From Novosphingobium sp. SG707 (GTDB lineage Bacteria; Pseudomonadota; Alphaproteobacteria; Sphingomonadales; Sphingomonadaceae), in contig NZ_JAAZQL010000009.1 in the NCBI RefSeq assembly GCF_012275515.1, positions 62,001 through 126,000 of the forward strand: a DNA stretch of 64,000 bases, written 5' to 3'. The translations under genes were made by a program, and so were the position numbers. The stretch's first letter is position 1. Each line of letters begins with the position of its first letter. This document shows, piece after piece, positions 12,276 through 12,476 of this stretch. A model generated the notes under the pieces. That model ran no database searches, was not told where the DNA came from, and saw only the letters and a list, made by a program, of their open reading frames with translations.

Positions 12276-12476
12276 GAGTCCCGATTGTCACGCCACTAGA
12301 TGTTGAGTCTGCCGAGTCGCGCCTGACTCTATCCCTTGTGTCAGACTCTTTCTGTTCTCCTGTCCTTGACTCGGTGTTACCATCGCGACTCGTGCTGACT
12401 CCACGAGTCGGGCCTTGACGTGAGTCTGCGAATGACTCATTGAGGGGGCCGTTCAACGCACTTATTCACAGGAATC
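12276..12476. promoter_or_regulatory. Cluster of twelve GANTC (CcrM) sites in the ccrM upstream region
   Basis: GANTC sites are centred at 12278, 12307, 12316, 12327, 12346, 12370, 12389, 12399, 12407, 12424, 12436 and 12474. The first eleven are all GAGTC/GACTC; the last, GAATC, lies in the ribosome-binding region. A four-specific-base motif is expected about once per 256 bases in unbiased sequence, so twelve in 201 is striking. Flanking bases differ from site to site, so the repeated unit is the methylase site itself. The interval fills the gap between rnhB and ccrM and presumably contains the ccrM promoter. Confidence 0.85.

Follow-up and report, generated by a model that had tools for sequence, protein, structure and literature searches.

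The question raised by this locus is why so many copies of a methyltransferase target are packed in front of the gene for the methyltransferase itself. In the window, by which we mean the whole 64-kb stretch of Novosphingobium DNA that was analysed, the intergenic region between rnhB (stop codon at about 12262) and ccrM (ATG at 12480) holds 12 GANTC pentamers in 201 bp (12276–12476, no strand assigned). They start at 12276, 12305, 12314, 12325, 12344, 12368, 12387, 12397, 12405, 12422, 12434 and 12472. The gene that follows (12480–13673, plus strand) codes for a 397 amino acid GANTC adenine methyltransferase with the Pfam domains N6_N4_Mtase and RAMA. Its best NCBIfam model is NF050803 CcrM (602.7 bits, under the cut-off of 830), and the closest named ccrM loci, from Novosphingobium sediminicola DSM 27057 and Novosphingobium sp. 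SG751A, are each 98% identical. The array was characterized by site counts, a genome sample and an alignment of congeners.

GANTC sites between rnhB and ccrM

The initial annotation had reported 12 sites in 201 bp, 11 of them centred on G or C and the last a GAATC in the ribosome-binding region, at a density beyond chance. All 12 were found again on recounting, with the same centre bases, the GAATC lying immediately 5' of the ccrM ATG. The density also stood: where shuffles predict 261 GANTC, the window as a whole contains 86, an overall depletion of about threefold. GANTC occurs at a mean of one per 969 bp in a genome sample of 1.264 Mb (22% of the genome, the window being part of it), where no 201-bp stretch other than the array exceeds 4 sites and two reach that number. 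The centre bases are also unusual, since A or T occupies the centre of 1015 of the 1305 GANTC in the sample and G or C elsewhere makes up 22%; at least 11 G/C centres out of 12 would arise by chance with P ~5e-7. Helical periodicity among the 12 window sites alone was not significant (P ~0.1 at 9.5–11.2 bp); pooled GANTC spacings of relatives peak at 9.8 bp, in rows that share ancestry.

Upstream DNA of ccrM was compared in four groups: 53 congeners, the own locus among them; 51 loci from the family's other genera; 35 loci representing other families within the order; and 45 from other orders. Upstream DNA was used from 90 of 94 genomes with a CcrM match (G017, G018, G051 and G086 were excluded), and L051, L089, L157 and L213, which had no anchor motif, were set aside. 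The other genera of the family were represented by 79 genomes (78 plus G107), 51 of which were used. For other orders there were 101 matching genomes (104 minus our own and two of the family), of which 47 were used and 45 anchored; these loci are nearly all top-ranked, so that this sample favours the CcrMs closest to that of the window. No two of the 104 family upstream sequences are identical. Counting GANTC across relatives against shuffled sequence, as had been suggested with the initial annotation, showed the cluster to be present upstream of ccrM: the mean per 360 bp is 8.4 in congeners, 6.0 in other genera, 5.8 in other families and 4.2 in other orders, compared with dinucleotide-shuffle means of ~1.9, 1.7, 1.6 and 1.6, respectively. 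A few of the other-order loci have no GANTC upstream of ccrM (minimum 0).

The array sites differ in conservation, a point missed at first. At 9 of the 12 window positions a GANTC occurs within 2 alignment columns in 36–48 of the 53 congeners. By the same measure the 12314 position is shared by 17 of 53, and the 12368 and 12472 positions by only 2 of 53 each; the GAATC of the ribosome-binding region is an extra of this lineage. The flanks of the sites, described in the initial annotation as unrelated, proved not to be so throughout, most sites sitting in conserved modules. The array is composite, and most of its elements contain CcrM sites. One suggestion made for it was a decoy or titration site for CcrM or for a GANTC reader. 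The density itself (12 per 201 bp against 4 in the next best stretch) would suit such a role, but 12 sites are few against roughly one per 969 bp genome-wide. The positions of the sites and the distances between modules are fixed, contrary to what is expected where number matters and position does not, and this disfavours titration, which we now regard as very improbable. The other half of that suggestion, a device for feedback on the ccrM promoter, agrees both with the presence of the cluster in relatives and with two GANTC that lie in a conserved core spacer.

A predicted promoter with GANTC sites in its spacer

A predicted -35 hexamer, TTGACG (12415–12420, plus strand), was recognized by a pattern common to relatives. 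It is followed by a pair of GANTC (12422–12426 and 12434–12438, together spanning 12422–12438, plus strand), also part of that pattern, and by a predicted weak -10, CATTGA (12438–12443, plus strand), proposed on the basis of its 17-bp spacing to TTGACG and of the relatives. Of 184 alphaproteobacterial regions upstream of ccrM, 129 have TTGAC with two spacer GANTC within one promoter length (44/53 congeners, 36/51 other genera, 24/35 other families and 25/45 other orders), a combination found about never in shuffles and a single time in the 1.264 Mb sampled from the own genome; in its strict form the pattern is absent from 9 of the 53 congeners and 15 of the 51 other-genus loci. The first core GANTC shifts by 1–3 bases among relatives. 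The second mostly begins 19 bp from the start of TTGAC, judged from matching counts, and its centre base is variable. The -10 is weakly conserved across Novosphingobium loci. An idea that the sites act in an RNA structure was dropped, the predicted start being downstream of them.

With TTGACG as the -35, the sites at 12422 and 12434 would fall between -35 and -10, near -27 and -16, and the core would have the geometry of GcrA/CcrM-type promoters. A gcrA gene was found in the genome (C2:374069–374707, E = 5.2e-37). Caulobacter start sites with GANTC between -35 and -10 are reported to form a cluster activated at 40–60 min (PMC4287350), and GcrA is reported to prefer fully methylated probes over hemi- or unmethylated ones (PMC3667746). 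In the GcrA/CcrM-dependent sigma70 promoters described for ctrA P1 and mipZ of Caulobacter, GANTC likewise lies in or near the -35/-10 spacer (PMC4287350, PMC3667746). The promoter studied here differs from these in belonging to ccrM itself, in having two spacer sites, the second mostly at the 19-bp distance, and in having an operator upstream. The ccrM promoter of Caulobacter is described as having GANTC sites too, with CtrA activation from a hemimethylated chromosome (PMC2217572), whereas the CtrA half-site TTAACCAT is absent from the window region.

Such observations could be accommodated by a promoter that responds to methylation alone, the array serving GcrA and CcrM only, with many sites sharpening the response to hemimethylation. 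The two-GANTC core is the widest-spread part of the region, GcrA binding is reported to depend on methylation (PMC3667746), and 20 of the 53 congeners and 1 of the 51 loci from other genera have an additional CGANTCG pair ahead of the -35. In the window this last element is an inverted repeat, CGACTCGTG / CACGAGTCG (12386–12410, no strand assigned), seen in the sequence directly upstream of the -35. The only other close CGANTCG pair in the 1.264 Mb is a direct one, CGAGTCG-N8-CGAGTCG, at C2:338714–338735. Some family loci (e.g. L013, L031, L046 and L088) have a CtrA-like TTAACCAT upstream of ccrM, 8 of them among the 53 congeners and 21 among the 51 loci from other genera; it was seen in rows lacking the CGANTCG inverted repeat, and a swap of inputs is possible.

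A DnaA box, likewise missed at first, appears to follow the promoter. The putative box TTATTCACA (12462–12470, plus strand; motif match) lies near the predicted start site. DnaA boxes are found at ccrM in 21 of 53 congeners and 27 of 51 other-genus loci, where shuffles would give 0.2 and 0.35 loci, respectively; the commonest start is 28 bp past TTGAC, that of the window 47 bp past. The window has one other TTATnCACA box, TGTGGATAA, at 4132–4140. A comparative study reported that DnaA motifs are predicted at ccrM chiefly in the absence of CtrA sites, and gave an average of 0.4–1.5 GANTC per promoter, from which it did not derive control by methylation (PMC2877005).

A tandem NrdR-type operator carrying CcrM sites

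Upstream of the promoter the region holds what appears to be the operator of a second regulator, also passed over in the initial annotation: a tandem NrdR-type pair with a GANTC in each inner half-site. NrdR is an ATP/dATP-sensing repressor of ribonucleotide reductase (RNR); its consensus is ACACWANATNTWGTGT, and its boxes often, though not always, overlap the promoter. Box 1, CCACTAGATGTTGAGT (12293–12308), and box 2, ACTCTATCCCTTGTGT (12326–12341), both on the plus strand, fit this consensus and were also identified with an RNR-trained matrix. The inner half-site of box 1 lies within GAGTC 12305–12309, that of box 2 within GACTC 12325–12329. The boxes are 33 bp apart with a 17-bp spacer, and NrdR is reported to prefer spacers of 15–17 bp and box distances of integer helical turns (PMC12051234). 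The ccrM pair has two palindromes with the conserved C/G core at a distance of three helical turns, and its spacer lies within the 15–17 bp range. It does not overlap the predicted promoter, box 2 ending 73 bp before the -35.

So that the identification would not depend on this consensus, a matrix was built from the genus's own RNR promoters, where a pattern shaped after the consensus finds a pair at 32–33 bp in 26 of 30 loci. A first matrix of 26 pairs gave the best pair upstream of ccrM a score above the shuffles' 99th percentile in 49 of 53 congeners, and the same held for 47 of the 51 loci from other genera. A symmetric matrix was then made from 22 RNR pairs, leaving out own and sister RNR (L123, L126, L134 and L091 excluded). 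Scanned over the 1.264 Mb, the RNR matrix gave 34.3 for the ccrM pair, 33.0 for C5:137611–137659 (L260), which precedes a gene with an RNR small-chain domain (nrdB), and 30.2 for C5:134255–134303, which precedes the RNR large-chain gene (nrdA); the next score was 17.2. In this genome nrdA and nrdB are separate, with an NrdR-type pair in front of each, and an nrdR gene was found (C2:505715–506140, E = 1.5e-50). A whole-pair profile, R1, was made from 23 of the 26 RNR pairs with the linker included (alignment A1; L123, L126 and L134 excluded). Searched against the own genome at E up to 10, with 150 of 2814 first-look candidates scored, it found nrdA and did not report ccrM or nrdB, a miss that may be explained by the large share of the model taken up by the linker and the asymmetric RNR boxes.

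The ranking of the ccrM pair with nrdA and nrdB argues against a region read for methylation alone. On that account the palindromic pair would be read by GcrA or another GANTC reader and not by NrdR, yet the outer half-sites CCAC and GTGT are conserved without GANTC. We consider it unlikely, though it is the strongest of the alternatives. Among the 94 family loci with a pair, the box 1 inner half is GAGTC in 83 (44/48 congeners and 39/46 other-genus loci) and the box 2 inner half is GACTC in 75 (39/48 and 36/46), while the outer halves are GANTC in 1 of 188. None of the 26 RNR pairs of the genus has GANTC in the corresponding half-sites. One further array GANTC lies between the two boxes and another in a conserved element beside the operator, GACTCnTTnnnTTC (12344–12357, plus strand), which follows box 2. 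This element was found in 45 of 53 congeners and 24 of 51 other-genus loci, and in 0 of 35 other-family and 0 of 45 other-order loci, being confined to the family.

Compared with the NrdR operators of RNR genes, the pair at ccrM has the same arrangement of tandem palindromic boxes at 32–33 bp and is matched by the same matrix, but the target is a DNA methylase, the inner half-sites are GANTC, and the operator lies upstream of the promoter, not over it. Non-coding consensus pairs occur in 44 of 53 congeners, 40 of 51 other-genus loci, 2 of 35 other-family loci and 10 of 45 other-order loci, with about 0 in shuffles of the family loci; at the cut-off 9 of the 53 congeners are without a pair, as are 11 of the 51 loci from other genera. 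Of the 35 loci from other families of the order, 22 passed the cut-off, but 20 of these pairs are rnhB coding sequence and were rejected as artefacts. Of the remaining two, that of L060 resembles rnhB coding sequence and was also counted as an artefact. The non-coding pairs of other orders (L140, L144, L147, L148, L150, L154, L160, L161, L201 and L209; for example ACACAATATCTTGTGT upstream of ccrM in L150) hint that the link between NrdR and ccrM predates the family.

The distance between TTGAC and the end of box 2 was measured in the 91 of 104 family loci carrying both elements. It is 61–63 bp in 64 loci, 72–74 in 21, 51–52 in 5 and 31 in one (L181), where the assigned pair starts at the real box 2 and the value stands for about 63. 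All 91 loci fall on helical-turn steps, none at 53–60 or 64–71, and a period of 10.5 bp gives a mean resultant of 0.947, compared with 0.20 for the distance from TTGAC to the gene. The classes are 52, 61–63 and 72–73 in congeners and 51–52, 61–63 and 73–74 in other genera, relatives of the same class sharing ancestry; the window locus belongs to the 73 class. Steps of this kind are expected if a protein on the operator works together with the promoter complex along a common face of the DNA.

In the NrdR–DNA structure, residues D15 and R17 are reported to make major-groove contacts with the box at its conserved G-C pairs (PMC9110341). By our reading, the contacted G would be the G of GANTC, neighbour of the methylated A. 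Shielding of GANTC from CcrM is reported for MucR, and for CtrA on a synthetic promoter whose CtrA boxes overlap GANTC (PMC5172544). There too the site of a DNA-binding protein overlaps CcrM sites, although the protein is a different one here and shielding at ccrM is a proposal. It is our guess that methylation of the box adenines alters NrdR binding, or that NrdR shields them. Shielding could also be taken as the whole function: proteins bound to the boxes would keep GANTC unmethylated for part of the cycle, and the promoter would read the local hypomethylation. The precedent of MucR and CtrA (PMC5172544) and the overlap of GANTC with the boxes at ccrM speak for it, but by itself it leaves the two core spacer sites unexplained. 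We hold it to be improbable as a complete account, while it is compatible with the control region that we favour, as one branch of it.

A probable composite control region and how it may work

The reading we favour, and think probable, is that the array is a conserved ccrM control region in which a methylation-sensitive promoter is combined with an upstream, phase-locked predicted NrdR input. The conservation, the module geometry, the ranking of the operator with RNR operators and the helical-step spacing are computed results; binding of NrdR, GcrA and DnaA to the region is what we infer from them. A weak sigma70-type core would be fired by RNA polymerase, most likely with GcrA, and methylation of the spacer sites would set its rate, closing a feedback loop from CcrM to ccrM. 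With dNTPs in excess, dATP-loaded NrdR on the upstream pair, held in register, would repress the promoter, and CcrM would then be produced during chromosome copying. That NrdR lowers ccrM expression at high dATP, as at RNR genes, is a guess, repression seeming somewhat likelier to us than activation. Through the GANTC in the boxes, methylation and NrdR may compete, much as MucR or CtrA is reported to do with CcrM (PMC5172544). The promoter would thereby integrate hemimethylation, signalling that the locus has just been replicated, with dNTP state via NrdR and with DnaA.

In its most specific form, which we put forward tentatively, the proposal is that ccrM of the Sphingomonadaceae is an NrdR target, that methylation of the inner half-sites by the gene's own product sets NrdR affinity, and that phased NrdR gates a GcrA-driven, hemimethylation-sensitive promoter. 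A synthetic CcrM memory circuit with a methylation-sensitive zinc-finger repressor (PMC5458116) likewise has a ccrM repressor with a CcrM-marked operator, as described there; that system is engineered and this one natural, and the effect of methylation is here proposed. A literature search of titles and the beginnings of abstracts named neither a link between NrdR and ccrM nor such a GANTC array; they may be described elsewhere, most subscription papers lying outside that search. The methylation-sensitive type of promoter is known, while the predicted NrdR input is unexpected and well supported by sequence.

The locus offers a natural case of methylase sites within an operator that may control the methylase and, in dNTP sensing by NrdR, a candidate input to the epigenetic clock of a large family of bacteria. 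If the more specific proposal is true, one composite switch couples re-methylation of the chromosome to dNTP state.
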